Positions 13,528-59,607 of a stretch of 64,000 nt of DNA are shown piece after piece. Both the position numbers and the translations under genes were made by a program. The notes under the pieces were generated by a model. That model was not told where the DNA came from. It saw only the letters and a program-made list of their open reading frames with translations, and made no database searches. This DNA comes from Hygrocybe punicea. Lineage: Eukaryota > Basidiomycota > Agaricomycetes > Agaricales > Hygrophoraceae. Location: assembly GCA_963556145.1 (NCBI GenBank), contig OY744472.1, positions 4,836,001-4,900,000 of the forward strand, given 5' to 3'. Position 1 is the first letter of the stretch. Each line of letters begins with the position of its first letter.

Positions 13528-16500
13528 TTACTGGAGCTGCCTTGCCTCCTCCACGGCTGTCTGGGCATCTTCGCGGCGACCCAGATCGGATAAAAGACGA
13601 GAAAGGGTCTTGAGGGACACGGCAAGACGTGGATTAAAAGCAGCAGGACAGTCGGCAGCAAGTTGCCGGCGCAGCTCAACCGCCTCCTCAATTGCTTTCA
13701 AGGCATCTTCTCGGCGAGCCAGATTGGTTAATCTAAGAGAGAGGTTGTTGAGTGACATGGCAAGATCTGGGATGAAAGTGGCAGGATGGTCAGCAGCAAG
13801 CTGCCGGTACAGCTCGACTGTGTCTTCGATTGCTCTCAAGGCATCTTCTCGGCGACCCAGATCGGATAAGCAGTTGGAGAGATTGTTCAGGGACATGGCG
13901 AGATCTGGAATGAAAGTCGCAGGACGGTCAGCAGCAAGCTGCCGGCATAGCTCAACCGCCTCCACAATTGCTTTCAAGGCATCTTCTCGGCGACCCAGAT
14001 CGGATAAGCGGTTGGAGAGATTGTTCAGGGACATGGCGACATCTGGAATGAAAGTCGCAGGACGGTCAGCAGCAAGCTGCCGGTACAGCTCAACTGCCTC
14101 CCCAATTGCTTTCAAGGCATCGTCTCGGTGACCCAGATCGGACAAACAGCCGGAGAGATTGTTCAGGGACCCGGCGAGATCTGGGGTGAAAGTCGCAGGA
14201 CGGTCAGCAGCAAGCTGCCGGCGTAGCTCAACCGCCTCCACAATTGCTTTCAAGGCATCTTCTCGGTGACCCAGATCAGATAAGCGGTTGGAGAGATTGT
14301 TCAGGGACATGGCGAGATCTGGAATGAAAGTCGCAGGACGGTCAGCAGCAAGCTGCCGGTACAGCTCAACTGCCTCCCCAATTGCTTTCAAGGCATCGTC
14401 TCGGTGACCCAGATCGGACAAACAGCCGGAGAGATTGTTCAGGGACCCGGCGAGATCTGGGGTGAAAGTCGCAGGACGGTCAGCAGCAAGCTGCCGGCAT
14501 AGCTCAACCGCCTCCACAATTGCTTTCAAGGCATCTTCTCGGCGACCCAGCTTGGATAAGCGGTTGGAGAGAATGTTCAGGGACATGGCGAGATGTGGAA
14601 TGAAAGTCGCAGGACGGTCAGCAGCAAGCTGCCGGCATAGCTCAACCGCCTCCACAATTGCTTTCAAGGCATCTTCTCGGCGACCCAGATTGGATAACAG
14701 AACAGAGAGGTTGTTCAGGGACCCGGCGAGATTTGGAATGAAAGTCGCAGGACGGTCAGCAGCAAGCTGCCGGCGTAGCTCAACCGCCTCCACAATTGCT
14801 TTCAAGGCATCTTCTCGGCGACCCAGATTGGATAAGCGGTTGGAGAGATTGTTCAGGGACATGGCGAGATCTGGAATGAAAGTCGCAGGACGGTCAGCAG
14901 CAAGCTGCCGGTACAGCTCAACTGCCTCCTCAATTGCTGTCAAAGCATCTTCTCGGCGACCCAGATTGGATAACAGAACCGAGAGGTTGTTCCGGGACAT
15001 GGCGAGATCTGGAATGAAAGTCGCAGGACGGTCAGCAGCAAGCTGCCGGTACAGCTCAACCGCCTCCACAATTGCTTTCAAGGCATCTTCTCGGCGACCC
15101 AGATCAGATAAGCAGTTGGAAAGATTGTTCAGGGCCATGGCGAGATCTGGAATGAAAGTCGCAGGACGGTCAGCAGCAAGCTGCCGGTACAGCTCGACTG
15201 CGTCTTCGATTGCTCTCAAGGCATCTTCTCGGCGACCCATGTAGTGAAATCGTGTGGAGAGCTCAAGAAACGCTGCAGCCTGTGTTTCGCCGGAAACTGC
15301 AGTTACAAGCATCGGGCACGTTTTCTATCCAGAATCACCATATTAGTTAGTACCACAGGAATTCAAATCCAAATTTCTAACCTGAAGCCAGACTCGTACA
15401 TTGACCAAACTTTGAAATTCAAATGTGGAATACAAAACCTCCATCCAGATCAGAAGCCGCCTCACAAGGAATGTGCTCACTGCATCGAGAAACATTTCCG
15501 ACAACGGCTCTTCGATGTCGATGATGTGCTCCGCCCAGAATCTGCACGCATACCATAGCACTTCCGGAACACTTGATTGGTCGATTTTAGGGATGCCTTC
15601 GACCTGCTTCTGTCCCGTTAAGTAGCCTGTATTAGCTATGTCCGGATTCAACTGTTCATTCATGACATCAATACACAAGAATGCCAGCCTCCGACTATGC
15701 TCCTTCTCGTTTATATAGAACCGTTCATGCACTGGGGAGGCTTGAGCCCGAAAAGTTAGGAAATCTCGAAAGGAGAGATGTAGGAGTTGTATAGGTCGAC
15801 ATTGATCGTCCAAGCCAATGAGTACCGAGCTGAGTTGGCGAAGAATTTCGTCGACTTTTAGTGTCGGATTAGCGCAATGAAGGCATCGGAGAGCAGTCAT
15901 GGACAGCGGTGTCTTGACTGCGACGATGGCCCCGATGAGCAACTCGTACCCCTCTACAAAATCCTCGTCTGTCCAGTTGCAGGTATTAAGAATCTCGGCA
16001 TACAATTTGTCCATCTTGGCTTCTGCGTGAAGGCCTGACGGGTCGTTCTTGTGCAAGAGTTTCCTGAGCTGCTTATCTGGATCCAAAGTGGTGGCCAAGT
16101 ACTTGCTGACTGTAGACGCCCAAATGAACAGGCCCTCCGCCTTCACCGTAAAGTCACGCGTTAATTGCACACCAGGCCAATCCGCATCCAGACGCTTCCG
16201 CGTTGCAATATATCGCAGCCTCGATTGGACATACAGAGCAATATCCCTCTGATTGCTGTCGTCGTGAATATTGATTGATCTGCAGTGGACATGATTTGCA
16301 GTGGACAAATCCATGAAAATGTCTTCCTTCGGGCGAGAGGTTAGGAATATGCGGAACGTCCCGGGAAGGTCAGGAACCTTGTTGCAAAGGATTTCGAGAG
16401 TCTCCAGATCATAGCCTTCATCCAGCGCATCGATGACTAGGACGATAGGTCTATGAATACGATGCCTGTGAACCTGAAAAGGATTCAGGATGAGCTCATC

Positions 16501-28440: not shown

Positions 28441-29233
28441 TGTAAAGGCGAGGTCGGGGTGGCTGCGGAATAATAATCCTAAGCCTGTGGGGTCAGCGTA
28501 GAAGTGACTAGGAATAGTCTAACAAGCTTCAGTAAGATAATAGGATATAAAAAGTAAGAAGCCGCCGAGTAAACTACTGAAATCTATCGAGACCGATCGA
28601 AGCCGACGAAGCCGACAATGTCGGGTACGGCGGGTCGGGTGTCGGGTGACGAGAAATGTAGAGATAAAGGCGGTAGAATGACGGGGAGGGCGTCGAGGAA
28701 TCCGACGAGCAATGTGTGCGATGGAATTTACTGAGAGACTAATTCTCAGAGAGAGGAAATGGGGGAACTGGTTTCTTATTTTGAGACGGCGCTTGGGCAC
28801 CGTTTTTATACTACAAAGTTCTGTACCTAGATTCGGACGAGAGTCCTCGGCCGATGAGAGGAAACAAAGGAGAATAAAAATGGGGAAGTAGGAAGAGCGT
28901 TGCGAGGCGACGATGACAGGGAAAATGGGTGGAAGATATAAAAACCGTAAAAGATGCAAAATACTTTACTATATCCCCATAAGGGAGACGCTAGGCGTGA
29001 ATAAGGCAAGTCCGATGTCGGGATCCCAGTCCGATGAGATCTATCTTTGATATTTGAAGTTCCGTGAGTTTAGGAGATAGACCGACCAGGTACGTGAGCG
29101 GCCGTGCTAGTCGGTATGCATCGGGTTGCGTCAGGTTGCGTCAGGTTCGAACATAGATTGCTAGAGACGTCGGGTTCGAGCAGATTCGCTAGATATCGAT
29201 GTTACGGCCTCAGAGGGTCGAGGACCCTCTACA
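28441..29233 (-). repeat. Gypsy LTR (3' LTR in element orientation)
   Basis: 793 bp, starts TGTAAAGG and ends CCTCTACA on the plus strand. It differs from the other LTR by a 9-bp indel and scattered substitutions, so the insertion is fairly recent. Confidence 0.93.
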
Positions 29234-29403
29234 TCTCCTTGGGTCTTCTAATAGAGACCATCCGTGGTCGAGAATATGGGGTCTCCGAATGCGGGTTGCG
29301 AATGTGGCCAATCACGTGAGCGGCCAAACAACGGCAAAGTAAAAAAATAAAAAAAATTCTCGTTGTTGATCCGACCTTTCCTCTACACCATCACACGTTC
29401 ACA

Positions 29404-30792
29404 ATGTCCCAAGTCTACGACAACTTCCTCGCTTTCGTCGAAAGCATCGAACCCGATGTCCGGGCGGACTACGAAGAGGCCGTCAACGCGGTCACCGTGT
29501 TTCATAGCGACAACCTCGTAACGATGGTGGACGGCAACGAGGGGATGGCCCAACAATGGTTGAGCGGCCGCAAGAAAGCGCTGGTGAGTTTTCCCGATTG
29601 ACTACGCGTGTCCTAAGATAGCTCATGTCGTCCCGCCAGCATGCTTATAATGGAATCGTCGCGGAACTCCGAGCTGGTGGTACAAGGCCAGTAACGCCAC
29701 CGTTATGGGCCGACCGCCAATCGTACGCCAACGATGTCGAAGAGTGGCTGAAAGAAGCGGCGGACCGAGAGAGGCATGAAAAGGAAGAAGCCAGACGGCG
29801 GGCGGATGAAGAAGCGGCTACGCGGGAAGAGGAGGCCAGACGGATGGCAGAGGCAAATGCACAAGCGGCGGCGGAGAAAAGGCGAAAGGCGGCAGAGGAA
29901 AGGCGGGAGCGGCTTAGAATAGAACAACACGAGCAACACTGGAATCAAGAAGCGGATTGGGTTGAAAGGGATGGAGCCGCGTATCGGCGGCGGCTCAGCG
30001 AAGAACGGCGAGCTGAAGCAAACACGGGTGAACCAAGGACTGAGTCGATTCCGGAAGGGGAAGCCGCAGTTGAGCCAGAGGAAGGCCCCGTCGACCCGGC
30101 ACCAGAGACACCGGCCGATGTAGAAGATGTAGATACGCCGGGCGTAGAGACCAGAGACCTGGCTGGTACAACGGTGAGTTCATGTGTCGGTTCCTTTGTT
30201 CTTTAGTCACTGATCCTGGTAATAGTTCACCGGGCCGTTTCCCCTACAACCCTGCACCAACTGCGTCAAGGCGCAAGAGGCGTGTCGAGGCGTCACGGGC
30301 TACGTGTGCGAACGATGCCGGAGGCTGAAGAAAAGATGTACTAACGCTACACACCGGACGGGCGGGGGTCGGCGCAAGGTGGATACCGGAAAGGGCAAAG
30401 AGGTCGTGGTCGGCACGAGGAAGCCGTTGTCATTCACGACAAAGCCCATCCGCAGTAGGCCTGCCTGGGCCTCAACGAGCAAACCGCGGGTCGAGGACGT
30501 GGAGTCGGTCGAGGACGATGACGAAGACGAGGAGGAGTCGGAGGAAGAGCGGCCGACGAAAAGGCTTAGGACGGCCTCGGCAGCGAACCCGTTCGTTTTG
30601 ACGATGGAGAATTACAAGCAAGTGTCGGCGCGGCTAGCGGTCCTTACGGAGGAGCTGGGAGCCCTGGGCACCAACGTCAACCGTCACCTCGTCCACTTCG
30701 GTCAAGAGTTCCAGTGGCTTCGCGTCGATCTCGAACGGTCGACCTCAAGGTTGGCGATGTTGAAGCGGGATTACGAGACCGGCCGCCTGTAA
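29404..30792 (+). CDS. Antisense accessory gene of the gypsy element (coiled-coil, Cys-cluster protein)
   Basis: Three exons, 29404-29583, 29640-30173 and 30226-30792, with 56- and 52-bp GT-AG introns, give 426 residues in one frame. Order of parts: an N-terminal globular region (MSQVYDNFLAFVESIEPDV), a long charged helix rich in Glu/Arg/Ala (about residues 90-170, probable coiled coil), an acidic Pro/Glu linker, then a Cys cluster CTNCVKAQEAC ... VCERCRRLKKRC (about residues 248-276) that looks like a DNA-binding zinc module, a basic/acidic segment, and a C-terminal helix. It is transcribed opposite to gag-pol, tail to tail with integrase (210 bp apart), starting 170 bp from the LTR. Its introns survive because the element's genomic RNA is the other strand. 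Function unknown; a nucleic-acid-binding or regulatory role is inference. Confidence 0.75.
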
Positions 30793-31001
30793 AATATATA
30801 TATAAAAATAACGAGCCCATTGTATATATAAAAAAAATATATCGTGTACATAAAAGACGTGTCAGCTTGTTCACCCAGCTAAGGAAAGCCGATCGGCTCC
30901 CGAAGACATAGGACTATTCGCATCATTCGTCATATCGTTAGAAAACTAAGAGGAACTAAATAAAATGGGGGTATAACGTGGACAGAATATAAATGAAATG
31001 C

Positions 31002-33110
31002 TTAATCGTCGTCGGGTGAGGAGTCTATAGAGGGCGGGTACGTCGGATCATCAAGATCGTTTGAATCGGTATCGTCGGCATCGGGGTATTGTAAGAAGTC
31101 GTCCAACGGTATCGATATTTTTGAGTGGGCGTGGTAGGGTACGACTCGGAAAGCGGCAAATCGAGATTTAGAAACCGCACCGTCGAGTTCGGCGAGTATG
31201 TAGGATCCGCCTTCTGTTTTCCTGACGACAACCATGGGTCCAAAGTACCGCGGTTTTGCTTTACGATCGAGAGACATTTCGATACGTGAATTTCGGACAA
31301 GAACAAGGTTACCGGGTTCGAAGTCGTAAACTTTGATCGTGTTGGCGTATTTCTGCTCGAATTGCCGGGCGGACGCAAGCCGAGATTTGGTAAGCTTTTC
31401 TTTGACCCGATCGAGGTCGGCTTCTCGTTTATGAAGTTGTCGGGCGCAGATGACTATGAGGTCGGTTGTAGACATCGTATCTTGCGTCAGAACCATGTAC
31501 GTAGCTTCGGCAAAATCGAATGGAAAAAGCGGTTCTACTCCGTGTGCGATGTAGTAGGACGAGTATCCGAGGCTTTTGTGTGTCGTGACCCGTTCGGCCC
31601 AAAATACGGAGTGGGTTACGGTGTGCCATTTCTTTTCATCTCCATCACAACTTTTCATAATGGCCTCCCGGACATCTAGGTGGCGACGCTCAACGGGTCC
31701 GTTTGCTTGTGAGTTATAGGGCGAAATGCGGATGTGGCGGATACCGTAGCGGGAGGCGAGATAGTCGAGCGCTTCTACGAATGGCTTGCCGTTGTCGGTG
31801 ACGATTTCTTCAAGAGCGCCCCAACGGCATAAGATGTCTTCGAACAAGAACGTGCCGATGGTGGAGCCGGTCTCGCGGCGTAACATGCGGAACTCAGGGT
31901 AGGCGGACAGGGAGCAATGGGCTTGGACGATGTATCGATAGCCGCCAGATCGTGGCATAAACATTATGTCGACATACGCTTTACGAAATAGCGAGGCCGG
32001 TGTAGCGACGGTGGGCGGAATGTGATGATAACGCATTTGCCGTACTTGGCACTGATGGCAAGACTGGACGTACCACTTAACATCGTGGTCGAGGTGCGGC
32101 CACCAGAAACAGTCGAGTAGCCAAGCGCGGACGGAGAATATACCTTTGTGGCTGAGAGAGTCGTGAGCGTCTTTGAGTAACTGAAGCCGGCGGTCGGGCG
32201 GTATGACAAGTTTGTGTTTTCCGTGACGGTCTTTGCGCCAAAGCTTGTTATCGGTGATGAAGAATTCAAGGGCGTATCGTAAGAACAGACGGTATTCTTC
32301 GTCCGTGAAGTTCGCGGGTCGGGTTAGATCTCGTAACCAGATCTCGACGAGGGCAAGACGAGCGTTGGCCGCGCGGGCTTTATCGGATCGCGGTATGTCA
32401 GATACGGCTTCCTGATTTGTGTAGACGAGGACGGCGGGTAATTCTTGGAGTCGGTCGGCTGTGGCATGGCAGCGGCCGCATACGGCAATTGGCTTAGACG
32501 GTATGGGGATGGGTCGGTAGTTGACGACTTCCATAAAGAAACCGTAGGAGTGGTCGAGCCAATCGTCGGAATCGTTGATCTCCTCGGGGTCTTCTGCAGC
32601 GTGGGGACGTCGGGAGAGTCCGTCGGGTGCACTGTGTGCGGAAGCGGGTACGTGAACGAGTCTAAAGTCAAATAAGAGCACGCCGGCTATCCATCGGTTG
32701 ATCGTAGCATTGGGCTGAATGTCGGGGTTGTTGAGCATCCCTTTTATGTACTTCGCGTCGACTTCAACAGTGAGGTTGCGGACGCCGATGATGAAGATTC
32801 GGTAGGCGCAGAGGGCCCTGAAGAGGCCGTAGAGTTCGAGCTTGGACTGGGAGTATCGGGCTTCGCGTTCGTTCCACGATATTGAACCAAAGCGATTCGG
32901 ATAGCGCTTTCCGTCGGCGCGGATTTGCATAAGAACGAAGCCAACTCCAAGAACAGATGAATCGACGGCGAGAATCACTTCCCATTCACGCGTGTAGTTG
33001 ATAGCGCGCAGCGCTGGCAACGTAATGATGGCGTTTTTGAGGTAGTCGACGGCGGTCTCTTCTTCTTCACCAAATTCGAAGGGTATACCTTTGCGGGTAA
33101 GATGGACCAG
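31002..33110 (-). pseudogene. Gypsy pol remainder: RNase H and integrase
   Basis: The frame opens at the nested insertion with LVHLTRKGIPFEFG, the linker after the RT domain, then RNase H-like sequence (VILAVDSSVLGVGFVL, NEREARYSQSKLELYGL). Integrase follows: the HHCC zinc finger (HDSLSHKG ... CHQCQVRQ) and a DDE core with VDIMFMP, VTDNGKPF and NGPVERRH. A C-terminal chromatin- or GPY-like part (KPRYFGPMVVVRKTEGGSYIL) and an acidic tail end at 31002. No YxDD motif is anywhere in the element, so it cannot reverse-transcribe on its own. The integrase looks intact. Confidence 0.88.
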
Positions 33111-33229
33111 TAGACCCAGTCGTTTTGGTTAACCCGATCGCAGATATAGTTGCAAAAGGTAGGTACACATAGCACAGTTGCTTGCTGGGGGGGTAGGTTA
33201 ACCCAAAAGACAGCTCTTGCTGGGGAAAT

Positions 33230-35056
33230 GTGGTGTGGTAGGTTGACCCAGGTACAGATCTTGCTGGTCAAGGGCGCCTGGGTGGGTCAACCCGGTGTCA
33301 GCTCTGCCATGGGGTAGGTTAACCCAGGGCAGCTATTCCAGGATGGATGGGTTGACCCAGGTCCAGCTGTTCAAGCCATGTGGGTTTACCTGGCTTCAGT
33401 TATTGCTGCAGCACTGGGTTGACCCTAGACCAGTTCTTGCTGCACACTGGGGTTGACCTGGACCCAGCTGTTGCTGTGGCATTGGGTTGACCAGGGCCCA
33501 GCACATGCTGGAGGGGGTGACTGGGGTCCAGCGATTGCTGGGTTGACCTGGCCCCAGCTCTGGCTGCAGGATTGGGTTGACCTGGCCCCAGCTCTTACTG
33601 CAGGATTGGGTCAACCCAGGTCCAGCTCTTGTTGCAGCATCGGGTCAACCCAGGTCCAGCTCTTACTGCTGCACCGGGTGCACCCAGGGCCAGCTTTTGC
33701 TGCAGCACTGGGTCAACCCAGGGCCAGCTATTGCTGGAGCATTGGGTTGACCTGGTCCCAGCTCTTGCTGCAGCACTGGGTTGACCCAGGTCCAGCACCT
33801 CCTGCAGGGCTTGGGTTGACCAGGGTCCAGCTATTGATGCAGCACTTGGTTGACCCAGGTCCAGCAATTACTGCGCCATTGGGTTGACCTGGTCCCAGCT
33901 CTTGCTGCAGCACTGGGTTGACCGGGGTCCAGCTATTGATGCAGCACTTGGTTGACCCAGGTCCAGCACCTCCTGCAGGGCTTGGGTTGACCAGGGTCCA
34001 GCTATTGATGCAGCACTTGGTTGACCCAGGTCCAGCAATTACTGCACCATTGGGTTGACCTGGTCCCAGCTCTTGCTGCAGCACTGGGTTGACCGGGGTC
34101 CAGCTATTGATGCAGCACTTGGTTGACCCAGGTCCAGCAATTACTGCGCCATTGGGTTGACCTGGTCTCAGCTCTTGCTGCAGCGCTGGGTTGACCTGGG
34201 TCCAGCACTTCCTGCAGGGCTTGGGTTGACCGGGGTCCAGCTATTGCTGCAGCATTTGGTTGACCCTGGCCCAGCACTTGCTGCAGGGTAGGTTGACCTG
34301 GTCCCAGCTCTTGCTGCAGCACTGGGTTGACCGAGGTCCAGCACTTCCTGCAGGGCTTTGGTTGACCGGGGTCCAGCTATTTCTGCAGCACTGGGTTGAC
34401 CCTGGCCCAGCACTTGCTGCGGGGTAGGTTGACTGGGGTCCAGCTATTGCTGCAGGGCTTGGGTTGACCAGGGTCCAGCTATTGCTGCTCCACTTAGTGT
34501 ATTGCACGGGTACGGGTAAACCCACGGGTTTTGCCACGGGTACGGGTACGGGTAGGGTACGGCTACGGATTCCTGGACCCGCCAGCTTTTTTTTAAGCCC
34601 TGGATCATCCAAAATGGTCAAGTAATGAGCTAGATATGCTCAAAATACCTCATTGCAGTATTTTGAGCATATCTAGCTCAATACTTGACCGTTTTGGACA
34701 ATCCGGGGCTTAAAATGATGGGTAAAACCCGCGGGTTTTGTACCCGCAGGTACAACGGGTGTGGGTATGGGTACAGCCAAAAATACCCGGGGGTTACCCG
34801 TGCAATACACTAGCTGCACTAGGTAGACCCTGGCCCAGTACTTGCTGCAGGATAGGTTGACCGGGGTCCAGCTATTGCTGCAGCACTTGGTTGACCCAGG
34901 TCCAGCAATTACTGCAGCATTGGGTTGACCTGGTCCCAGCTCTTGCTGCAGCACTGGGTTGACCAGGGTCCAGCTATTGCTGCAGGGTAGGTTGACTGGG
35001 GTCCAGCCCATTCTGTAGCGTTGGTTTGATCCTGGACCCACTCAATCGGCAGGATT
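33230..35056. repeat. Outer-arm subterminal tandem repeats, left
   Basis: Dozens of imperfect units of about 35 bp of the type TGGGTTGACC(C/T)GG(T/G)CCCAGC followed by a TTGCTGCAGCA-like core, with higher-order duplication. The open frames seen here (NSWTLVNPSPAGGAGPG type) are products of the repeat, not genes. Confidence 0.85.
34495..34812. mobile_element. MITE in the left foldback arm
   Basis: Body 34497-34810 (314 bp) with inverted ends GTGTATTGCACGGGTA, flanked by TA on both sides. The interior is rich in ACGGGTA/TACCCGT units and has a central hairpin (CTCAAAATAC ... GTATTTTGAG). The right arm lacks it. A related ACGGGTAACCC-rich stretch lies at about 57885-58045. Confidence 0.8.
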
Positions 35057-36380
35057 ACACAAAAATGTCCTCTGTATAAATAACATTACAATAATCCAAA
35101 ATATGGAAAAACATGGTATGGGTCCTTGTAGCCCTTGAAAAATAGAACAACTTTCCCTTTACAACCATGTCAATCCAAGCATTTCTTGTACAGATATTCA
35201 TCATACAAGTTACAATGACTCAATTCAACAATTCCCCTATAACTTTCTATATAACACATATTTTGAAATTGTAAATGGAGGGAACAGTGGCCCTTAGGAC
35301 ATAGACAAACTGTCCCTCTCAAACTATGCAATTTGGTGCAGTATTTCACAAGTTATCATTTTACTAGGACCTCCTTCTTTAAAAGATTTATTTTTCAAAA
35401 AGGTCATTGTATATGCAAATAGCAATAAAGTAGACACATAAATTTAATAATAATTATATCCAAATACATAATTAAATAGTAAAGGGCAGGAGGCAGATGA
35501 GAGGAAGATAGGTGGGTGTGGAGTGGGAGGAAGGTGGTTGTGGGTGTGGGAGGAAGGTGGGTGTGGGAGGAAGGTGGGTGTGGAGTGGAGGAAGGTGGGT
35601 GTGGGAGAAGGGAGTGGGAGTGGGAGAAGAGGGAAGGTGGGAAGGCAGCAGGCAAGGGCAGCAGGGAGAGGGAGAGGGAGAGGGAGAGGGAGAGGGAGGA
35701 GGAGAGGGAGGAGAGTCGGAAGTACAGACCGGTTGCGTTCCCGTTGTCCTCGTCGTCTTTGTCTACGTCTCCGCCGTCCTCGTCCTCGTCGTTCCCGTCC
35801 CAGTCGTCCCCGTCCCCATCGTCCCCGTTTCCGCCGTTCCGGTCCCTGTCGTTCCCGTTCCCGTCGTTCCTCTCGGTGTCGTCATCGTCCTCGTTGTCGT
35901 TGTCATCGCCCGTAGTCCTCGTCGTCCGCCAGATCGTCGTCGTCGTCTGCGTCGTCCTATCGTCCCCTCGCTAGCCGTCCCCGTCGTTCCCGTCGTTCCC
36001 GTCCCCGTCGTTCCCGTTCCCGTCGTCCCCGTTCTCATCGTCCTCCTTGTCATCGTCATCGTCATCGTCATCGTCGTCGTCATCGTCGTCGTCCTCGTCG
36101 TCGTCATCGTCGTCGTCCTCTCGTCCTCGTTGTCGTCATCCCCGTCTCCGTCCCCGTCGTCGTCCTCGTCGTTCCCTGGATGCTCCCGTCGTCCTGTTGT
36201 CTCTTCGCTGGCCGTCTCCGTCCCCGTCGTCTTCCCTGGCTGGCCGTCTGTGCCCTCGTCGCCTCTGTCCCCGTCGTTGCCTGCCATCCGCCGTTTCGGC
36301 CCTTCAGTTGGGTGTTGACGTGACATGGCGCGGGCATGCCTGTTGCGGTTAATTTCAGGCGCGGCAGTGAGAAAGTCCTT
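35057..36380. repeat. Left inner arm, low-complexity coding-like region
   Basis: AT-rich stretch, then GAGGAAGGTGGGTGTGG-type repeats, then GTCGTCCCCGTCGTT-type repeats. In the minus frame the latter reads Thr/Gly/Asp-rich (TGTTGTGTTG), preceded by an exon-like piece (DFLTAAPEINRNRHARAMS) after a possible 64-bp intron. The matching structure at 37430-38245 points the other way. Confidence 0.6.
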
Positions 36381-37430
36381 CATAAAAACAATAATATTAT
36401 CTAGCATAGTAATAGTAATAAATTTTGAGAAATCTACTTACCTTCTACTTGATTTTGCTGCTGTTGCTGTTCTCGTGGACGCATCGTGGAGTACGCGACG
36501 ATTTGAACCCACGCCGGAGGTTGCCGATTGCCCAAACGGGCGCGAGTTGCCTTATATGTAACCAAGATATTACTTTTCTCAGTGTAATTGCATGGAGCAC
36601 AACGACTGTGTAGCACATTTAAGACCATGTAGAGATAGAATTAGCCTCTAACTACATCCTCCCCAAATTTTGTATTTTATTATGGCATACATAGAGAGAT
36701 ATCCATGATTCATTGATACCTCCCTGCCAATTCTGGACCCTTAAAGTGCTACTTTACCAATATTGCTCTGAAAAATATGAGAATAATTTGGAAACTACTA
36801 TGTAAAGTATTTATTGTATTGATGATCAGTGCCTGGCACTTGGTGGTCCCGGAATCTGTTGTAGCCAAGAAATGAAAGGTTCAAAGTAAAGCTGAACTTG
36901 AAGTTTGGACTTGGTTGATGGGTCAGCCACAATGCACAATTCTGTGCATTTGCTTGGCTGAAACAAAGGTCCTGGTCCACCCACAATCAGGCACTTATGT
37001 GTACCACAATGAGTACTCATTAAAGTACTCCTTAGATTAATTTCAGATTTTTAAGACAAAGTTAGATCATTAAGGGTCCAATTCTGGCAGAGGAATGGAA
37101 TAAATTGTGAATAGCTCTTGATGCAGGGCCGAATAAAATACAAATTTTGGTATGAGGGTAGATATACCATATTTACACCTTTTGAGGATCTCACTTCGGG
37201 TATGCATGCATTGTTGTGCATGCTAGAAGATTCAAAAGCTTCAGCGACACTTCCATGTTTGGCAACTCGAACCCGTTTGGGAAATCGGCAACAGCCGGTT
37301 GGCTTTCCCGCGCGAGTTCAAAGCTTCGACTCGTTGATTTCAACAACGCGTCAACGCGTCAGACGGGTCAGAGGAGCACCCAAGGTAAATTTCTGATTTG
37401 AACATTTTTGTCTTCTTTGCTAATTGTTGA
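36381..37430. other. Centre of the foldback element
   Basis: Mostly AT-rich and unassigned. Diverged inverted copies of a GGCAACTCG(C/A)(G/A)CCCGTTTGGG motif stand at about 36535-36555 (minus) and 37258-37280 (plus), each leading outward into an exon-like stretch and a splice-like GTAAGT/GTAAAT. Confidence 0.5.
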
Positions 37431-38780
37431 CCTTTTGCAGCTACACCACGCCAAACACAGGCGAATCCAAAAACCCATCACCAGAACACAACGCGCCAGC
37501 AAACAGAACGGAAGCCGACGAAAACGGCCACCGTGAGGATGGCGGAAACGAGGCCGCGAGGCCGGGTACGAGGATGCGCCAACGACCAGGACGGACGGCC
37601 GAGACAACCACGACGGCAACGACGAGGTCAGTCGACGAGGTCACAGACGGCCGGCGACGGGACAACGGGACGGAGAAGGATAGCGACGGGACGACAGGAC
37701 GACGGAGACGACGACGACCATCCGGGGGACGACGACAACCATCCAGGTGGCGACGAGGACGACGACGGGGACGGAGACGCGGATGACGACGACAACGAGG
37801 ACGATGACGACGACGACGGGAACGACGGGAACGGGAACGACAGCGACGGGGACGACGGGGACGAGGACGGCGGAGACGCAGACGAGGACGACAGGACGAG
37901 GACGACGGGACGAGGACGGCGGAGACGTAGACGAAGACGACGAGGACAACGGGAACGTATGTACATTCCACTCTCCTCCCTCTCCCTCTCCCTCTCCCTC
38001 TCCCTCTCCGTCTCCATCTCTGTCTCCCTCCCGTCCCTGCTGCCTTCCCACCTTCCCCCTTCTCCCACTCCCACTCCCTTCTCCCACTCCCACTCCCTTC
38101 TCCCACTCCCACCTTCCTCCCTCTCCTACTCCCACCTTCCTCCCTCTCCCACTCCCCTATCTTCCTCTCACCTGCCTTCTGCCCTTCACTATATAATTAT
38201 GTATTTGGATAAAATAATCATTAAATTTATGTGTCTATTTTAAGTAATAGTGAGGATATATATATTGATTCCAATGGAGAATTGAGCAATATTAAATAGA
38301 AAAGCACAATATTTGAAGTGGGGTAAGTTCTGATTTTGTCATAGATTGTCATTGGGAATAAATAGCTCCTGTAACGGCTGATAGCTGATAGTGAAAGTAA
38401 GATATTGTGCATTGTCAAAATAATAATGTTTTAATTTTGCTATTCCCTGTGCTTTTAATAAGTGCATTCAAATTATATTATGTGGTACATTGTGTGTCAT
38501 GTACAGATTGAAAATTTTTGAGGACTTTATATGGCAGTTTCTGAGTAAATATTGGCTTGAGCTGGTGTGAGCTCTGTCAATGTTGTGAACATGAAATAAT
38601 TGCAGGCAGACTGGGGTGTGGCTCAAGCCTGTGGACCAACATGAGCCCACATGGCAGCAAGACCTGGATCCTGGTCAACCAAATCCTGCAGCGAGAGCTA
38701 GGCCAGGGTCAACCCAATTCTGCAGCAAGAGCTGAGCATGGCAACCCAGTGCTGGAGCAATAGCCAGACCGTGGTGAACC
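37431..38780. repeat. Right inner arm
   Basis: Inverted counterpart of the left inner arm: on the plus strand an Arg/Thr/Asp-rich frame of GACGACGGGGACGAG-type repeats, then CTCCCTCTCC and CTCCCACTCC microsatellites, then AT-rich sequence without a partner at 38250-38780. Confidence 0.6.
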
Positions 38781-40162
38781 CAATCCTGCCGATTGAGTGG
38801 GTCCAGGATCAAACCAACGCTACAGAATGGGCTGGACCCCAGTCAACCTACCCTGCAGCAATAGCTGGACCCTGGTCAACCCAGTGCTGCAGCAAGAGCT
38901 GGACCCCGGTCAACCAAAGCCCTGCAGGAAGTGCTGGACCTCGGTCAACCCAGTGCTGCAGCAAGAGCTGGGACCAGGTCAACCTACCCTGCAGCAAGTG
39001 CTGGGCCAGGGTCAACCAAATGCTGCAGCAATAGCTGGACCCCGGTCAACCCAAGCCCTGCAGGAAGTGCTGGACCCAGGTCAACCCAGTGCTGCAGCAA
39101 GAGCTGAGACCAGGTCAACCCAATGGCGCAGTAATTGCTGGACCTGGGTCAACCAAGTGCTGCATCAATAGCTGGACCCCGGTCAACCCAGTGCTGCAGC
39201 AAGAGCTGGGACCAGGTCAACCCAATGGTGCAGTAATTGCTGGACCTGGGTCAACCAAGTGCTGCATCAATAGCTGGACCCTGGTCAACCCAAGCCCTGC
39301 AGGAGGTGCTGGACCTGGGTCAACCAAGTGCTGCATCAATAGCTGGACCCCGGTCAACCCAGTGCTGCAGCAAGAGCTGGGACCAGGTCAACCCAATGGC
39401 GCAGTAATTGCTGGACCTGGGTCAACCAAGTGCTGCATCAATAGCTGGACCCTGGTCAACCCAAGCCCTGCAGGAGGTGCTGGACCTGGGTCAACCCAGT
39501 GCTGCAGCAAGAGCTGGGACCAGGTCAACCCAATGCTCCAGCAATAGCTGGCCCTGGGTTGACCCAGTGCTGCAGCAAAAGCTGGCCCTGGGTGCACCCG
39601 GTGCAGCAGTAAGAGCTGGACCTGGGTTGACCCGATGCTGCAACAAGAGCTGGACCTGGGTTGACCCAATCCTGCAGTAAGAGCTGGGGCCAGGTCAACC
39701 CAATCCTGCAGCCAGAGCTGGGGCCAGGTCAACCCAGCAATCGCTGGACCCCAGTCACCCCCTCCAGCATGTGCTGGGCCCTGGTCAACCCAATGCCACA
39801 GCAACAGCTGGGTCCAGGTCAACCCCAGTGTGCAGCAAGAACTGGTCTAGGGTCAACCCAGTGCTGCAGCAATAACTGAAGCCAGGTAAACCCACATGGC
39901 TTGAACAGCTGGACCTGGGTCAACCCATCCATCCTGGAATAGCTGCCCTGGGTTAACCTACCCCATGGCAGAGCTGACACCGGGTTGACCCACCCAGGCG
40001 CCCTTGACCAGCAAGATCTGTACCTGGGTCAACCTACCACACCACATTTCCCCAGCAAGAGCTGTCTTTTGGGTTAACCTACCCCCCCAGCAAGCAACTG
40101 CGCTATGTGTACCTACCTTTTGCAACTATATCTGCGATCGGGTTAACCAAAACGACTGGGTC
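38781..40162. repeat. Outer-arm subterminal tandem repeats, right
   Basis: Inverted counterpart of 33113-35056, about 1.38 kb and shorter by several repeat units and the MITE. It translates to the same sequence as the left arm over long stretches, showing high identity. Confidence 0.85.
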
Positions 40163-40164
40163 TA

Positions 40165-42220
40165 CTGTGTCGAGGACACACTCGAATACGAATTTGCCGT
40201 TGATGAGCGGGTAGACCGCACGGAGAGGGACTGAGTCGCGGCCGACGACGAGCGGGACGTTTTCCTGACAGTGTTGACAGGCGCGAGTGGGGATTTCGGG
40301 TGCGTGAAAATGGAAGACCTCGACGTTGTTACTCTTGGCGGTGACCTTTTTCGACGTAGTGAGGTCCTTCATGTGATGGCGGGCGTCGGACGACATGGCT
40401 AAAAGTTCTCGCTGTGAAATGCAGACTTGAGAATCGAGCGCGCGGTCGATGACGGATTTGGCGATACCGGGATCTTCGATGGGGGCTTGGTAGCGGTATT
40501 GGGGGTGCGATGCGGGAAGGTTCTGGGGAGTGCGCGGTACAAGGGCGGTCGGCTTGGTCGGCCGCATGTTCGAAGGGGGGACTATGGTGATCGGCTGCTC
40601 GTTGATAGGTCTGGCCGTTTTCTCGGCGGGTTTCGCGGCGGGGACGGACGTGGAAGTGGCGGGCGGATTGGGAAACGTTTCTCTAGACTTGCCTTTCGCC
40701 TTCGATGGGATCTCTACACCGTCGAATCTAACCCGTTTACGAAGCTGCTGCACTTCGGCTTCCAGAACCTTAATCTGTTCGTTGTCGTTGTCGATGTCGG
40801 ACGTCGTGGACTGAAAGATGTCGGCGTACTCGGTAGTGACCTCTGGTTCGTAGGTGGGTACTTCGACAGCGGAGACGAAGTTAGCTTTGACATGAGGTGG
40901 CAGGTCGCGTTGGAACGGTTCTGTGGGGTTGCGGGCAGGGGGAGCGCGGTTGCCGGGGTTCTGTGCGTGCCACGCGTCGAAGCGTTCCCTCATATTTTTG
41001 CCGACGATAGCCTTTGGAAGATACATTCCGTTAGGCAACACGATGCGGCCGTGCTCGTTCTTGCGGCATATTCCATCTCGAGTGTACTGCTCGCAGATGG
41101 GACAATCGCATATACGATGGAACGGGTCGTCGCAAAAGAGGCAGTTGAAGTTGGTGAAACCCTGTCCCGCGGTGGTCGGCTCAGCCCTATTTGCACACGG
41201 CTTTGGGGGGTTGTTGCATTCGGTGAGGGCTTGTGTGAGGACGGCAAGTTGTTGCGAAACGAGACGAAATAGGTCGGATACGTTAGGTTCGACCGGTTCC
41301 GCTTTAGGAATGACCGGGTCATAGCGAGCGGGTGGCGGGTAGCGGGTGGCGGGTTCTATTGGAGTCGAGTACCGGATGGCGGCAGGCGACGTTGACGATA
41401 GACGAGAGACGGTGGACAGTTCGGCCGCGGTTCCGGCCAGCAAGAAGTGGGCGCAATTGTGGAAGTCCTGGAAGTTGTAAGGGTCGCTATGGAAATGGTT
41501 CGGCTTTTGGTACTGCAGACGGGTTTTGATGTCCTTTTTAAGCTCGACATGGAAGCCGTTCTCGTACGCGATGTTGCGTTCTCGGGGAGAGATCCGACCC
41601 TTGTCTAGAAGAAACCCTGAGATCCGGATGAACTCACGGTAATATTCACCAAGTTCGGCGCAGGTACAGATACCGTAAGCGGTTTGGGTGTGCGTAAGAT
41701 GGTCGAGATCCGCCATAGTGTACCGGTGATCGTCTTCCGTGCCCGGGTATAGCACGAGTACGCTCCTTTTTAATGCGGCATAATCGACGCCGGTCGCGCT
41801 AGGTAAACTTGCCCAAAGCTCGTAGTCACTAAGCGACACGTAGCGCAGACTATGCTTGATGCGTCCTGCGTCGTCGAGAGCGGCATCGGCAGCAAGTATC
41901 TCAACTTCTTCGAAGAAGCGGTTTAAATTGAGCGGGTTCCCGTCGAAGGTCGGGGCCGTGGAGTGACCGCGAGTGGGCATTTGTCGTGGAGTAACATGGG
42001 GAGCGGTGACGTGGGGAGCGGTCGAAGATCCAGAGGTCGAAGTCATTGTGGGTGGAAGGAGCTGAGATGTCGATGAAGCGGTTGTCGGGTGTACGATGAG
42101 CGGGTCGGGTAACGTGGGCGATGACGGTGTGGACGAAGACGAAGACGGGGACGATGACGATGACGGAGTTTTCGATGTCGAGAGCAAAGACGGAGACGAT
42201 GACGATGACGGAGTTTTCAA
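40165..42220 (-). pseudogene. Gypsy gag with protease start
   Basis: About 685 codons; the true start lies at or above 42220, since the frame stays open upstream without a clear ATG. Ser/Pro-rich N-terminus, a gag core (NLNRFFEEVEILAADAALDD, GVDYAALKRSVLVLYPG), and a CCHC zinc knuckle CLFCDDPFHRICDC. At the end comes the protease approach (PLRAVYPLINGKF, ECVLD), where the Asp is the expected catalytic residue. The sequence breaks right after that Asp, at the foldback insertion. Gag packages element RNA in virus-like particles. Confidence 0.82.
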
Positions 42221-42592
42221 TGTCGAGAGCGAAGACGTGGACGGGGGTTCTAGCGAGGTCGAAGTCGGGGACGTAGGCGATGCGGGTGTCGAACTGAGAT
42301 CGGATGAGTCCGGTGTGATGGTAATTATCGGTATATCGACCGATTCGAGACTGTCGGATGAAAGATATAGGGGGGTGTTTGACCCTGAGACGAGCGGGAG
42401 GTTGTTATGTCGAGTGAGGTGGTCGGGTACTAGCTGGAAGAAGTCGTCGTCGATTGTTGGGTCGAAGGCGGCTAAAGAGAGTTCTTGTTGAAGAGTTCTT
42501 CGAGGAAGATCTCGAAGACGACGGTCAGAGGGAGGGATATGGGAAGAGGAAGCTATGGTGGTGCTAGACTATTCCTCGCGGTGGGCTCCAGA

Positions 42593-43376
42593 TGTAAAGG
42601 CGAGGTCGGGGTGGCTGCGGAATAATAATCCTAAGCCTGTGGGGTCAGCGTAGAAGTGACTAGGAATAGTCTAACAAGCTTCAGTAAGATAATAGGATAT
42701 AAAAAGTAAGAAGCCGCCGAGTAAACTACTGAAATCTATCGAGACCGATCGAAGCCGACGATGTCGGGTACGGCGGGTCGGGTGTCGGGTGACGAGAAAC
42801 GTAGAGATAAAGGCGGTAGAACGACGGGGAGGGCGTCGAGGAATCCGACGAGCAATGTGTGCGATGGAATTTACTGAGAGACTAATTCTCAGAGAGAGGA
42901 AATGGGGGAACTGGTTTCTTATTTTGAGACGGCGCTTGGGCACCGTTTTTATACTACAAAGTTCTGTACCTAGATTCGGACGAGAGTCCTCGGCCGATGA
43001 GAGGAAACAAAGGAGAATAAAAATGGGGAAGTAGGAAGAGCGTTGCAAGGCGACGATGACAGGGAAAATGGGTGGAAGATATAAAAACCATAAAAGATGC
43101 AAAATACTTTACTATATCCCCATAAGGGAGACGCTAGGCGTGAATAAGGCAAGTCCGATGTCGGGATCCCAGTCCGATGAGATCTATCTTTGATATTTGA
43201 AGTTCCGCGAGTTTAGGAGATAGACCGACCAGGTACGTGAGCAGCCGTGCTAGTCGGTATGCATCGGGTTGCATCGGGTTGCGTCGGGTTCGAACGTAGA
43301 TTGCTAGAGACGTCGGGTTCGAGCGGATTCGCTAGATATCGATGTTACGGCCTCAGAGGGTCGAGGACCCTCTACA
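42593..43376 (-). repeat. Gypsy LTR (5' LTR in element orientation)
   Basis: 784 bp, same ends as the other LTR, followed by CTGG. Confidence 0.93.
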
Positions 43377-47279: not shown

Positions 47280-47434
47280 TGTCCAATGAATAATGCTGAA
47301 GTGCAGCAGTTATTCTACTTACCACAAGAAACTTCTAGTAGATTTAGCTAGTAGTATAAAAGCCCTCTCAGAGAGAGGTAAATATAATTCAATTCCACAT
47401 AAATTACTTAGTGGTCAACAACCACTGCACTACA
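47280..47434 (+). repeat. Copia 5' LTR
   Basis: 155 bp, includes CTAGTAGTATAAAAGCCCTC, a likely TATA box (TATAAAAG). Confidence 0.85.
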
Positions 47435-47521
47435 ATAGGTTATGAGCCCTGAATGGCTGTAATGGAAACATGATCACACACCTCCGAACATTGCACTGCC
47501 ACCTCATATACTAAGCCAACT

Positions 47522-50500
47522 ATGATGGACGAAGTCACACACACATCGGGATCCTACCAGATTGAGTTATTGAAGGGGAACAATTGGATGCCATGGAAGA
47601 GACAGATATTAGCCATGCTTCGGGATCTTGGGTTAGAGATGTACATCAATGTGGAATCAAAAGCCCCTGTCCCGGTGGACACTTCTCATCCAACACCAGT
47701 GGAATCCGAGGCAATGCAGAAATGGTGCAGCAGAGACACCAAGACGAGGACACAGATTGAGCTCACAATTGGCAATGTGGAAATGATACATATCGTTGGT
47801 GCACACACAGCGAGTGAGATGTGGAAGCAGCTAACCTTGGTAAAGGAATCCAGGGGGAAGCTCGGAATATTAGCGATGTGATGCGCATTGTACTGGTCAA
47901 TTGCTGAAGAACGATTCAACCTAATTGAGCACATATCGAAGCTCTGGAAACTGCAGGAGGAGCTCCACTTGATGGGAAGCCTTGTTTCCAATGAAGATTT
48001 TGTGATGATACTTGTATCCTCCTTACCAGAAAGTTGGGACTTGTATACATCAGCGTACTTAGGCTTGAAGAAAAACAGAACATCACTGATGTCACACGAA
48101 CTAGTCGTGATCCCATTAGAGGAAGACCACAGGTGCCATGAGCACAGTGGAGATCCTAACAATGTTGCTATGCACAGGAGGTTCACCAGAAAGTGCAACA
48201 GAAAGGGTAACAGAAAGCAGAAAGCGGCCAATTCCAAGACGGAATGCTTCAACTGCCACAAGAAGGGACATATGGCGAAGGACTGCTGGTCTAAAGGTGG
48301 CAGAAAGGAAGGGCAAGGGCCAAAAGGGAATGGAAAGGGTGCTGGAAAGGGTGGAAACCAATGGAACTGATCGAATCAAGCTGCAGACAATGTCAATAAT
48401 ATGTTACAGGATGTAGCATACACAGTGAATACAGACAATATTTCAAACTACAATTGGTTACTGGATTCCGGAACGACAAGTCACATCAGCAATTCCTGAA
48501 ACGCATTTATCACGTACAAAACTCTGGACAAAGCTACCGTTCAAGGACTAGGAAAGGTAGCCGCTCGAGCTCTTGGTCGCAGAACCATTGACTTACACTT
48601 CACAGTGGACGGAAAGGACATACAGCATGAGCTACGAGATGTACTACATGTACCAGAGTCACAGAACTTGCTACTATTGCTGAGCCGATTTGATGAAAGC
48701 GGGGGATGGGTTAACTTCCGCAACGGAATATGCAGGCTCTATATGAAGGAGAATAAACTTGTCGGAACAGGCTGGAAAGACAGATGACTATACCGTTTGA
48801 ATGCCCAAGCACAATCCCGCACGCCAGAAAAGGCAAACGTAGCCACGCCGAAGAAAATGTCTTGGGACGAATGGCACCGCCTATACGGACACATCGGAAT
48901 GAGCGGACTCAAGACCCTGCAGAGAAAGGGGTTAGTCATGGGTCTAGAAATTGACGAAGAGTGTGTCCCTTCTCAAACCTATGAGGCTTGCATTCAGGTG
49001 AAGCAAGCCGTCCAGCCATTTCTGAAAGAGGCTGATGGATGATCAAAAGTCGCCAGAGAGTGGACTTTGAGCGATGTCTGGGGCCCAGCACGCATAGAGT
49101 CTATCGGAGGATCGAGATACTATATCTCATTCATGGAAGACGTGGTATGCACCATAACCACTTTATTCATGAAACAGAAAAGCCAGGCAATGGAACATAT
49201 CAAGGCTTACATTAACATGATTGAGAAGAAGTTCAATCGAAACCCTAAATATTTGTGGTTCGATAACAGAAAGGAACTCATCAACAAGGAAGTCGAGAGA
49301 TGGGCAGCAGAGAAGGGAATTGTCATCAAAACAATGGCCCCTTACTCACCCTCGCAACACAGAACGGTGAAAAGATTTAATCGCACATTACTGGAGTTAG
49401 CCCATGCGATGTTGATCACTAAAAACCTGCCCACATTCCTTTGGCTGGAAGCCATTGCACATGCAGCATACATTCGAAACCAATCCCCCACCAAGGCTCT
49501 AGACGGAATGACTCCACATGAAGCCTGGACTGGCAAGAAGCCAGACGTATCGCATTTCTGGGAGTTTGGATGCGATGTTTGGGTCTTATATCAAGGCGGA
49601 AAAAGATTGAAGCTGGCACTGCAAACAGCTAAGATGAAGTTTGTAGGATTTGTGGAGTTGCAGAAGGCTATCTGATACTACAATGTCACAATGTGGACTG
49701 TTAAAACATCACAGAATGTTGCATTTCATGAGGATGGGGCATTTCAGGAAGTCCAGATTGTATCCAACTTACCAGGTTTGCAATTCGAGGGGGAGCAGAG
49801 TGAATCTGATGACTCGCAAACTCTGGAACAACTGGAACCCGCAATGGAATCACTGGAACCCACCAGAATGGCACTGGAAAGGGCTATTTGCAGACTGGAA
49901 AATGAAATAACATACCCACCAAGAGCAACATGAGGAGTCGACTGCAACTACCAACAGTTAAACAACCCGTGTGCACAACTGACACAATGTGAGATATGTG
50001 AACCGCTTGATGTATGAAGACCAACGGAATCATCCACAGCAAAACAAAAGGAAAAAGTCAGCACAGAAACAACCATAGCATATACATTCTTGAGCGCAAT
50101 GCAGCAGGATAGCAGTCTCACTGACAAGGACCCATGGGATTTGAAGGAAGCCAGGGAAGCCGTGGATTGGGAGAACTGGAAGATAGCGATGAAAGAAGAA
50201 TTCGATCAGCTACAAGAAATGGCATTTGGACTCATAGACTTCAAGTTACTGGAGGGGCAGGAAGCCATCAGAAGCAAGTGGGTTTTCCACCACAAGATGG
50301 GTGCAATCGCTAGGCACAAGGCCTGATTAGTAGCCCAGGGGTTTTCACAGAAGCCCAGAGTGGATTTCAGCAAAACCAAAACATTTGCTCCTGTGATGCA
50401 GTTCGAGACATTACGGACGTTGCTCATGTATTCCGCAGTCAAGGATTGGGATATTCAGCAGATGGATATCAAAGGCACATACCTTAATAGATGGGTGAAG

Positions 50501-51660
50501 GAGGAGCTGTACATGAAACAGCCAGTGGAATTTGAGGACAGAACTGGATGGGTTTGCCACCTCATATGCCCTATATATGGTCTCAGGCAAGCCAGAAACA
50601 TATGGAACATGGATTTTGATAACACGATGAAAGAATTTCATTATACGAGATTATGGACCAACTACTGTGTGTACTACTATTGGGAAGGAGAAACCTTCTC
50701 CATCGTACTCATATGGGTCGATGACCTTACAGCTTATGCAAACAACCAAGCAATGAATCAGCGGATAATCAACCAGCTGAAAGAAAAATACATGGTAACG
50801 GTCATTGGAAAGCCAATGTTACTGCTTGGAATCCATATCAAATGAGACCACCAACAATGGAAAGTCACCCTATTACAAAGCCGTTATATCTGGAAGATAC
50901 TTGCGAAGGCTGGAATGAAGGATGCGAAACCGGTATCAACCCCAATGGATCAGAACGTGATCCTATGAATAGACAAAACCAAAACCAACGAGAGCAAGTG
51001 GAAACACACCTCGATCGAGTATGCGACATGAGTCGGAGAGCTCTTGTATGCTGCGCATGCAACAAGACCTGATATCATGTATGCAACTGTAACTGTTGCG
51101 CAATTCACATGGAACCCGAGTCCGGAACACTGGACAGCACTTAAAAGGATATTCCACTACATAAAGGGAACAATTGATTATGAACTAATGTACGGCGGAA
51201 AGGACCAATGGATTATGACAGAAACTGTTCATTACGTCAATGCTGATTTGGGATCGAACCCACACCAGAAATCCATTAGCAGATATGTGTTCACAATCGC
51301 AGGGGGAGCTGTAGCTTGGAGCTCGAAGAAGCAGAGCATGATTGCATTGTCAATGGCTGAAGCAGAATATGTCGCTGCTACTCATGCCATGAAGCAGCAA
51401 TCTGGAATAGAAATTTGTTGAAGGAATTGGACCTATGATCTGATAATCAGGCTGTGATTGCTATATCGCACAACCCGGAATTCCACGCGTGGACGAAACA
51501 TATAGATATCAATCTACATTTCCTATGAGATCACGTTGCATCTGGTATCCTCAAAGTCATGTATATTCCTTCTGAAGAAAATCTAGTGGACATATTTATG
51601 AAAGGGTTACCTCGCCCCCTTCATGCAAAGTTCATGACCGAACTTGGTCTATTGACTGGA
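47522..51660 (+). pseudogene. Copia gag-pol polyprotein, broken
   Basis: Pieces in order: gag (MMDEVTHTSGSYQIELLKGN; knuckle CFNCHKKGHMAKDC), protease (LLDSGTTSHIS), GAG-pre-integrase (WHRLYGHIGMSGLKTLQRKG), integrase, RT (GFSQKPRVDFSKTKTFAPV, WVDDLTAYA) and RNase H (AVAWSSKKQSMIALSMAEAE). At least eight in-frame stops and some frameshifts occur, many of them TGA. The third integrase acidic residue is changed: VKRFNRTL where active elements read AERxNRTL. The DNG motif reads DNRKEL. It is not functional. Confidence 0.88.
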
Positions 51661-51750
51661 ACCAGAAAGAGCAGAACATGTAATGGAATACATGGACGAT
51701 GTTTACTGCGACCCAGAACGAGTCGAAGAGTATTCGACCAAGTGGGAGTT

Positions 51751-51906
51751 TGTCCCATGAATAATGCTGAAGCGCAGCAGTTATTCTACTTACCACAAGA
51801 AACTTCTAGTAGATTTAGCTAGTAGTATAATAGCCCTCTCAGAGAGAGGTAAATATAATTCAATTCCACATAAATATCTTAGCGGTCAACAACCACTGCA
51901 CTACCA
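51751..51906 (+). repeat. Copia 3' LTR
   Basis: 156 bp, slightly diverged from the 5' LTR. From 51807 onward it is part of duplicated segment A. Confidence 0.85.
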
Positions 51907-52439
51907 TATATTCCGAAAGAAATAAATGATTTTGGAAAGAATTCACCAATTCTGGAAAGTAATTACCATTTTGAAAAGAAAATACTTTTGGGCGAAACAA
52001 ATCTTTTTGTCCAATGAGACCCTTCATAGTCAGGCTATCAACTGACTTTGCTCTCTGGAGGCTGGCGAGATTAGAATATGTCGTCAATTGAGCTGGTAGA
52101 GATGCTAGATATCCACAGTCAGGAAAGGTTCTGGACATGAGTATCCACGAGTAGACGGCCCTCAGAATCACACCTATCCTACGACTCAAGCATGATCTCG
52201 GGAGAGATTTTGTATCAAGTTAGGAAAACTTCGGCGACTGTACTATTTCGTGCTACAATTGAACTCTGCTCTCAGAGAGATTCCAGCTATATTTAGGGTT
52301 TCCGCAGTGATTCTTACCCAGGGCCAGTGGAGCTAGAATCGGGGGGCATTGTCCTCGTCCGCTTCGGGGGGGCCGTGCGCGGCCCGCGCAGTTCCGTGCG
52401 CGTGCGCGAAACCGCCTCTCCCACAGAAGCGGGAGCCGC

Positions 52440-53000: not shown

Positions 53001-53187
53001 TGCTTCTTATCTGTAAAGCGCAACATGAGCGGGAGCATTGTTGTTTGTAGTGTGAGTGTTACCGGCCCCCCTGATAATGTCTCCTGCAAGTGAAGAAGTA
53101 AATGCGAGGAAGTGGGATTAAGCTCTGGGATTTATATGCAAGAACACGTGCTACTTACGTCCGGAGGCTGGTGTACGTGGTCGACTA

Positions 53188-54235: not shown

Positions 54236-54339
54236 TCCATTTAAAACAGATTACGTCGTCGCGGATGAATGTTTCTGTCTATGCCCTCCACCAGATTAAG
54301 GCCTGATCGACTGCACAATTCTCGTTGGGCGCGCAGACC

Positions 54340-59600: not shown

Positions 59601-59607
59601 CGGATGG

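Follow-up and report, generated by a model that had tools for sequence, protein, structure and literature searches.

In the 64 000 nt stretch of DNA analysed here (the window; G000:C40:4836001–4900000 of a source genome of 92.2 Mb in 42 contigs), a high-copy Ty3/gypsy family carries a conserved three-exon coding gene that is antisense to the element and lies between pol and the 3′ LTR, and a homologue of this gene is present in another family, herein termed family D. The gene is found at 29404–30792 (+), opposite gag and pol, and its three exons specify a product of 426 aa; the earlier note on this DNA had taken it for an accessory gene with introns, antisense within a Ty3/gypsy element, a description that the present analysis bears out.

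The host element is bounded by two LTRs on the minus strand, the 3′ LTR at 28441–29233 (793 bp, with TGTA…TACA ends when read on the plus strand) and the 5′ LTR at 42593–43376, which are 97.5 % identical to one another and each have CTGG directly outside them as a target-site repeat. Between these, again on the minus strand, are a gag ORF at 40103–42568 with a DUF4100 domain (PF13352; 32.0 bits, cut-off 27.9) and the 3′ part of pol at 31002–33128, comprising RNase H and integrase (PF17919, PF17917 and PF17921 above cut-off); on this pol remnant rve reached 29.1 bits against a cut-off of 32.6. The gag ORF is interrupted at 40167/40168 by a 7.06 kb insert (33111–40167) with inverted ends of 1.36 kb that are 98.7 % identical, which stands where a full copy, L009, has ∼1.9 kb of element; the bases of the pol ORF past 33110 are insert sequence. 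In L009 the protease match scored 21.3 bits against a cut-off of 24.3. Taken together, the window and L009 possess the LTRs, target-site repeat, gag, protease and order of RNase H before integrase of a Ty3/gypsy element, with the rve and protease matches below cut-off. The window copy of the element is broken, yet its antisense gene is open. As to other features of this DNA, the insert is rich in 34 bp minisatellite repeats, and 138 bp (46-codon) tandem repeats occur at 13543–15239 within a long minus-strand ORF, which we take to encode a TPR protein beside an NTPase-like ORF. Additionally, the ORFs at 47280–51908 are flanked by 158 bp direct repeats (95.6 %) and presumably belong to a copia-type element, and two pairs of duplicated blocks (53010–54625 with 59633–61268, and 51813–52789 with 58694–59689) show 95 and 81 % identity, respectively.

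The antisense gene is composed of exon 1 (29404–29583, 60 codons), exon 2 (29640–30173, 178 codons) and exon 3 (30226–30792, 188 codons followed by TAA), all on the plus strand and separated by two phase 0 introns: intron 1 (29584–29639, +, 56 nt, GTGAGT…GCCAG) and intron 2 (30174–30225, +, 52 nt, GTGAGT…CTGAT…AATAG, with CTGAT as the branch site). Judged by intron style and type of element, the host may be a mushroom-type basidiomycete. The 3′ LTR is separated from the ATG by 170 bp (29234–29403, +), an interval that could house a promoter or leader for the antisense gene. At the other end, the gene and pol converge on a spacer (30793–31001) that contains many short indels, several of which are common to different copies.

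Splice signals were compared in an alignment of 33 copies (that of the window plus 32 more, with duplicate loci L002, L004 and L007 left out), which were drawn from best-scoring lists and are hence biased towards intact ones; one of them, L005, is without its 5′ half. For intron 1, the donor GTGAGT and the acceptor AG were present in all 32 aligned copies, whilst for intron 2 the donor was GTGAGT in 32 of 33 copies and GTAAGT in one, with both the acceptor AG and the CTGAT motif retained in all 33. The ATG was kept in 32/32 aligned copies and the TAA in 31/32. Across the 33 aligned copies, the sole exon indel common to several of them is 9 bp long (21 copies), and intron 1 and the spacers carry shared 1 bp indels. 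The spliced frame was free of stops and frameshifts in 24 of these 33 best-scoring copies. Two in-frame acceptor AGs exist for intron 1, at 29621 and 29639, the former being kept in 30 of 32 copies. Nine of the 32 copies read GCTAG or ACTAG at the 29639 acceptor, so that use of 29621 would place TAG in frame in these copies, and the diverged copy L023 is without the 29621 site. For these reasons the aligned sequences point to 29639 as the preferred acceptor and make 29621 less likely, although the latter might be used in some copies. The element would put up with these introns since, read in the sense direction, its genomic RNA does not contain them as introns; in line with the earlier proposal that they are never spliced out during retrotransposition, the copies and subfamilies examined retain them.

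At least 150 copies of exon 3 are present in this genome (150 scored, the best of 484 candidates), which are 91–100 % identical and of which 19 contain an internal stop, and for exon 1, where the best 150 of 371 candidates were scored, a stop was found in none; both counts are lower bounds and are skewed to the best copies. Placement was counted over the top 56 of 99 DUF4100 matches, leaving out the other 43, which belong to the diverged element L060 and to other families. Exon 3 was located downstream of, and on the opposite strand to, 54 of these 56 best-scoring family gag matches within 15 kb, and at ∼4.4 kb in 48 of them, compared with 4/56 for a same-strand control and 2/56 for an upstream control; the gene is accordingly found in other copies at the same place, which was one of the checks proposed in the earlier note. 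Furthermore, in three 10 kb stretches (L009–L011) the parts follow one another as LTR, gag, pol, antisense gene and LTR, with one LTR per stretch cut off by the stretch end, and in the full copies examined the antisense gene is separate from gag-pol, with no fusion. The same gene also occupies the same place in L060, a decayed and more diverged copy. As most family copies carry it and, as judged from its sequence, it is conserved as a protein, it would count as an antisense accessory ORF (aORF-3R of PMC7264820).

Comparison of the window gene with diverged subfamilies gave dN/dS values of 0.30 (L023), 0.14 (L077, where synonymous sites are saturated) and 0.18 (L082), as opposed to 1.17–1.61 for frames +1, +2, reverse 0 and reverse 1 in the same three comparisons. 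The reverse frame that faces the third positions of the gene gave 0.24–0.35, yet it holds 10–15 stop-bearing codons versus 0–6 in the true frame; its low value arises because it lies opposite third positions of the gene frame, and coding on the sense strand was rejected on account of the stops. In a context-matched test, wherein each change was redrawn among sites with the same base and CpG state, the value for L023 was 0.48, with the observed synonymous count reached in none of 2000 simulations. For five chosen diverged copies (L023, L016, L022, L013 and L006) the values were 0.46–0.52, and in 500 draws for each of the last four the observed synonymous count was never reached. No contrast was seen between shared and singleton changes, for which N/S was 1.21 and 1.22, respectively, over all 33 copies; nor was any seen after context correction without L023 (shared 0.61, doubletons 0.75, singletons 0.63), whilst the youngest subset gave 0.62, 0.67 and 0.71 for the same classes. 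The purifying selection that the earlier reading called for is therefore clear between lineages in these sequence comparisons, whereas the thin sample does not separate out post-insertion changes on terminal branches. A chance ORF was rejected, given the presence of at least 150 copies, the conserved splice signals and the frame specificity of this selection.

With respect to L023 (G000:C39:5377700–5380900), dS was 0.70 in exons 1–2 versus 0.20 in exon 3, and this copy is apparently a recombinant, with exons 1–2 and the leader from a diverged subfamily, and exon 3 and the pol end near the window family. In the 32 aligned copies without L023 (window 29234–31200), singleton transitions amounted to 0.319 per CpG site (125 on 392) versus 0.072 per other C/G site (50 on 698), and TGA was found in 18 of the 19 stop-bearing exon 3 matches. 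Because singleton transitions concentrate at CpG, this pattern of methylation-type decay suggests that the host methylates the copies.

The predicted product consists of a conserved N-terminal segment, a long charged coiled-coil-like stretch (E/K/R/A-rich, identified by eye in exon 2 at ∼29736–30029, +), a Cys cluster containing basic residues, and an acidic stretch. It also has a C-terminal helix (residues 122–187 of exon 3; 30589–30786, +), for which pLDDT is mostly > 90. The cluster (exon 3; 30253–30339, +) contains six cysteines in the arrangement C-x2-C-x6-C-x7-C-x2-C-x6-C, and identical spacing is found in family D (L079) and in P0001, P0002 and P0004. The consensus of Gal4-type Zn2Cys6 clusters is C-x2-C-x6-C-x5–12-C-x2-C-x6–8-C, and the cluster of the window gene fits this spacing (PF00172). 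The Pfam Zn_clus score, at 13.9 bits for exon 3 and 12.4 bits for family D, stays below the cut-off of 21, and for this reason the product was not filed as a Gal4-type factor. On exon 3 the Zn_clus alignment covers the second half of the cluster only, which is also where the basic residues are found; in Gal4 they are in the first half. In the AlphaFold model, pLDDT is < 50 over most of the cluster, and short helices at 14–19 and 29–34 are at most suggestive of a zinc-cluster fold. Thus, the window gene shares with Gal4-type proteins the six-cysteine spacing and the occurrence of coiled-coil-like stretches in the same protein, and differs from them in its sub-cut-off score and the position of its basic residues. 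No Pfam domain was found above cut-off in the product, PF04195 (TRP28) was not matched even at E values as high as 1, a PDB sequence search returned an uninformative best E of 0.26, and neither the spliced product nor its exon 3 region retrieved anything in protein searches.

The family D gene was reached by walking outward with exon 1 of L023 to L078, the homologue lying ∼1 kb further. It has 28–33 % protein identity to the window gene, introns at the same two positions (phase 0; 49 and 52 nt) and all six cysteines, and its parts are arranged in the same order. For its exon 3, the 503 candidates include at least 151 matches, of which 150 were scored, and the C-terminal domain of family D gag is 45 % identical to window gag over 51 aa (E 1 × 10−13). 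Amongst the 150 best-scoring gag matches, the gene was found downstream, on the opposite strand and within 15 kb in 128 (median distance over the 128, 1061 bp), and in 102 the two face each other ∼1.0–1.1 kb apart; the placement controls gave 5/150 and 8/150. As the gap is only ∼1.06 kb, this usual arrangement is without room for pol. LTR sequence adjoins the gene in L078 and is found beyond gag in L081, the two being 97 % identical over 365 bp; in the L081 / C33 copy it ends ∼1.2 kb past the gag domain. Pieced together in this way from different copies, family D appears to comprise LTRs and gag with no pol in its usual arrangement, and in this it matches a non-autonomous gag-only LTR element of the TR-GAG class. 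Between two short-spacing copies, one of which is decaying (TGA stops and frameshifts), dN/dS was 0.19, with 1.08–1.52 for four other frames and 0.32 for the facing reverse frame; therefore, selection seems to have retained the antisense gene inside this pol-less lineage. Separately, five family D units stand in tandem at G000:C35:1851867–1871138, with a 4334 bp period and with gag and the antisense gene in each.

Using an exon 3 profile, four ORFs of source ‘jgi’ were found among 7842 candidates, two of them D-like, a further one sharing 62 % identity with the window gene and the last forming a third branch at 34 %; the two D-like ORFs and the one at 62 % may derive from this species or from a near relative. 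The genome also contains a second DUF4100 family, with a pol ∼42 % identical, in which the product had no tblastn match below E 0.78 in three elements (L061+L067, L062+L066 and L064+L068, covered to ∼3.4 kb past pol) and two stretches (L063 and L065), the absence holding for these only. Sense open frames follow pol in this second family at L066:773–1468 (+) and L067:810–1472 (+), with 97.7 % DNA identity, and a 263 aa frame is shared by L068:1691–2482 (+) and L063:536–1327 (+).

We see an even chance that the antisense gene encodes a nuclear, element-specific DNA-binding protein, which acts on the LTR or flanks of its own family as an activator or anti-silencer. Transcription would proceed from a promoter in or beside the 3′ LTR, the host would splice the antisense transcript, and translation would give a nuclear coiled-coil DNA-binding protein, probably dimeric, with a Zn2Cys6-spaced cluster and basic and acidic stretches. 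By analogy with other systems, this protein would bind sites in the LTR or flanking DNA of its own family, and its binding would keep own-family copies transcribed, whether by activation or by counteracting silencing. In the pol-less family, gag and the antisense gene would act on family-specific sequences with pol supplied in trans, and they may have been kept because both are family-specific, whereas pol can come in trans; the retention of these two genes with the loss of pol would fit such a cis-specific role. More tentatively, and with somewhat less than an even chance, family D may be a pol-less two-gene parasite, made up of gag and an antisense spliced regulator whose DNA-binding protein recognizes its own LTRs only. 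Gag/regulator pairs would then form separate recognition groups sharing one pol in trans, with the antisense gene, not pol, as the part that cannot be borrowed.

A cluster of DNA-binding-like type, together with a basic stretch and coiled coils, would also suit a protein that accompanies the cDNA/integrase complex into the nucleus and tethers it to chromatin, with no transcription control; a pol-less element would likewise need its own cDNA imported, and a role of this kind is among those discussed for plant antisense ORFs in PMC7264820. A separately transcribed, antisense, intron-bearing gene that is unfused to gag-pol in the full copies examined nevertheless suits a nuclear regulator better than a particle protein, and we regard this role in entry or integration as rather unlikely. 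Because the gene and pol converge within ∼210 bp, overlapping transcripts are likely, and the product might act as an RNA-silencing suppressor or RNA binder, e.g. against dsRNA formed by convergent transcription of the element and the gene. No Pfam domain above cut-off was found in the product, however, and its cysteine spacing is of a DNA-binding cluster type, rendering this improbable.

Non-coding antisense transcripts are known in other elements, according to PMC7264820, but that the RNA itself is the functional product here, with the reading frame incidental, is hardly credible: it is contradicted by purifying selection that is specific to this frame, between subfamilies as well as inside family D, and by the protein identity and conserved cysteines that link the two families. 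In favour of host-gene capture, with the element as no more than a carrier, one may point to the host-style introns, which DNA-level capture would retain, and to the possible existence of a copy outside the element, since scoring was limited to the top 150 candidates of each search. Against this stands the presence of the gene in two families with 28–33 % protein identity, placed and oriented alike with respect to gag and the LTR and under selection in both, and we consider capture of this sort highly improbable. The nuclear, element-specific regulator remains our preferred reading.

Such a regulator may be likened to several known systems. HBZ of HTLV-1 is a spliced, coiled-coil bZIP protein. 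It is specified by an antisense gene of an LTR element and has a nuclear product (PMC11963269; PMC7264820); HBZ is viral and bZIP, whereas the window gene has a cysteine cluster, and the likeness is one of kind, with no homology claimed. The proposed mode of action corresponds to that of VANC of Arabidopsis VANDAL transposons, described as sequence-specific anti-silencing of its own family (PMC10398659); VANDALs are plant elements of another kind, and again no homology of VANC to the window gene is claimed. Antisense accessory genes as such are already known from plant Grande, RIRE2 and Retand elements and from fungal Boty. Grande gene23 and the antisense ORFs of RIRE2 and Retand are described as having the same position and orientation and as occurring in most copies, and the nuclear product of Grande and the predicted DNA-binding TRP28 (PF04195) of Retand are comparable to what is proposed here (PMC7264820; PMC11963269). 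For the Grande antisense ORF, transcription from its own promoter and a nuclear product are reported as demonstrated (PMC7264820), and some Retand elements are described as non-autonomous (PMC7264820; PMC11963269). The window gene is unlike Retand TRP28 in that a PF04195 match is absent, and it contains two conserved introns, whereas the main texts of PMC7264820 and PMC11963269 on the plant ORFs nowhere use the word ‘intron’.

The earlier note knew of no characterized fungal case with introns, and it needs correcting in that an antisense gene of a fungal element is on record: Boty-like elements of Botrytis cinerea carry brtn in antisense orientation (Zhao et al., 2011, via PMC7264820, PMC8365987 and PMC4227169). 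As with the window gene, brtn is described as an extra gene of a fungal LTR element, antisense to gag-pol and between pol and the 3′ LTR; the two are likened by description rather than by sequence, and the passages on brtn in these accounts mention no pol-less sister family keeping it. Overall, the interpretation as an antisense, intron-containing accessory gene stood, whilst the precedent of brtn had been overlooked and the family D homologue missed. Among the literature titles and abstract beginnings listed (mostly without subscription papers; e.g. 20 of 129 in one list), there was no intron-containing, zinc-cluster-type antisense gene in fungal elements, and no report of an antisense gene retained in a pol-less family was found among such titles and abstract beginnings.

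In reviews, the roles of LTR-element antisense genes are described as still undetermined (PMC7264820; PMC11963269). The present genome offers 300 or more scored copies, a gene built cleanly in host style and selection signals in two old families, along with a natural deletion experiment in which pol was lost and gag and the antisense gene were kept. This makes the question of what an antisense protein can do that cannot be borrowed directly testable, and it illustrates how an RNA-mobile element can keep carrying introns. Moreover, the antisense gene has survived in a sister family even though the enzymes for copying itself were lost there, which suggests that these elements depend on it.
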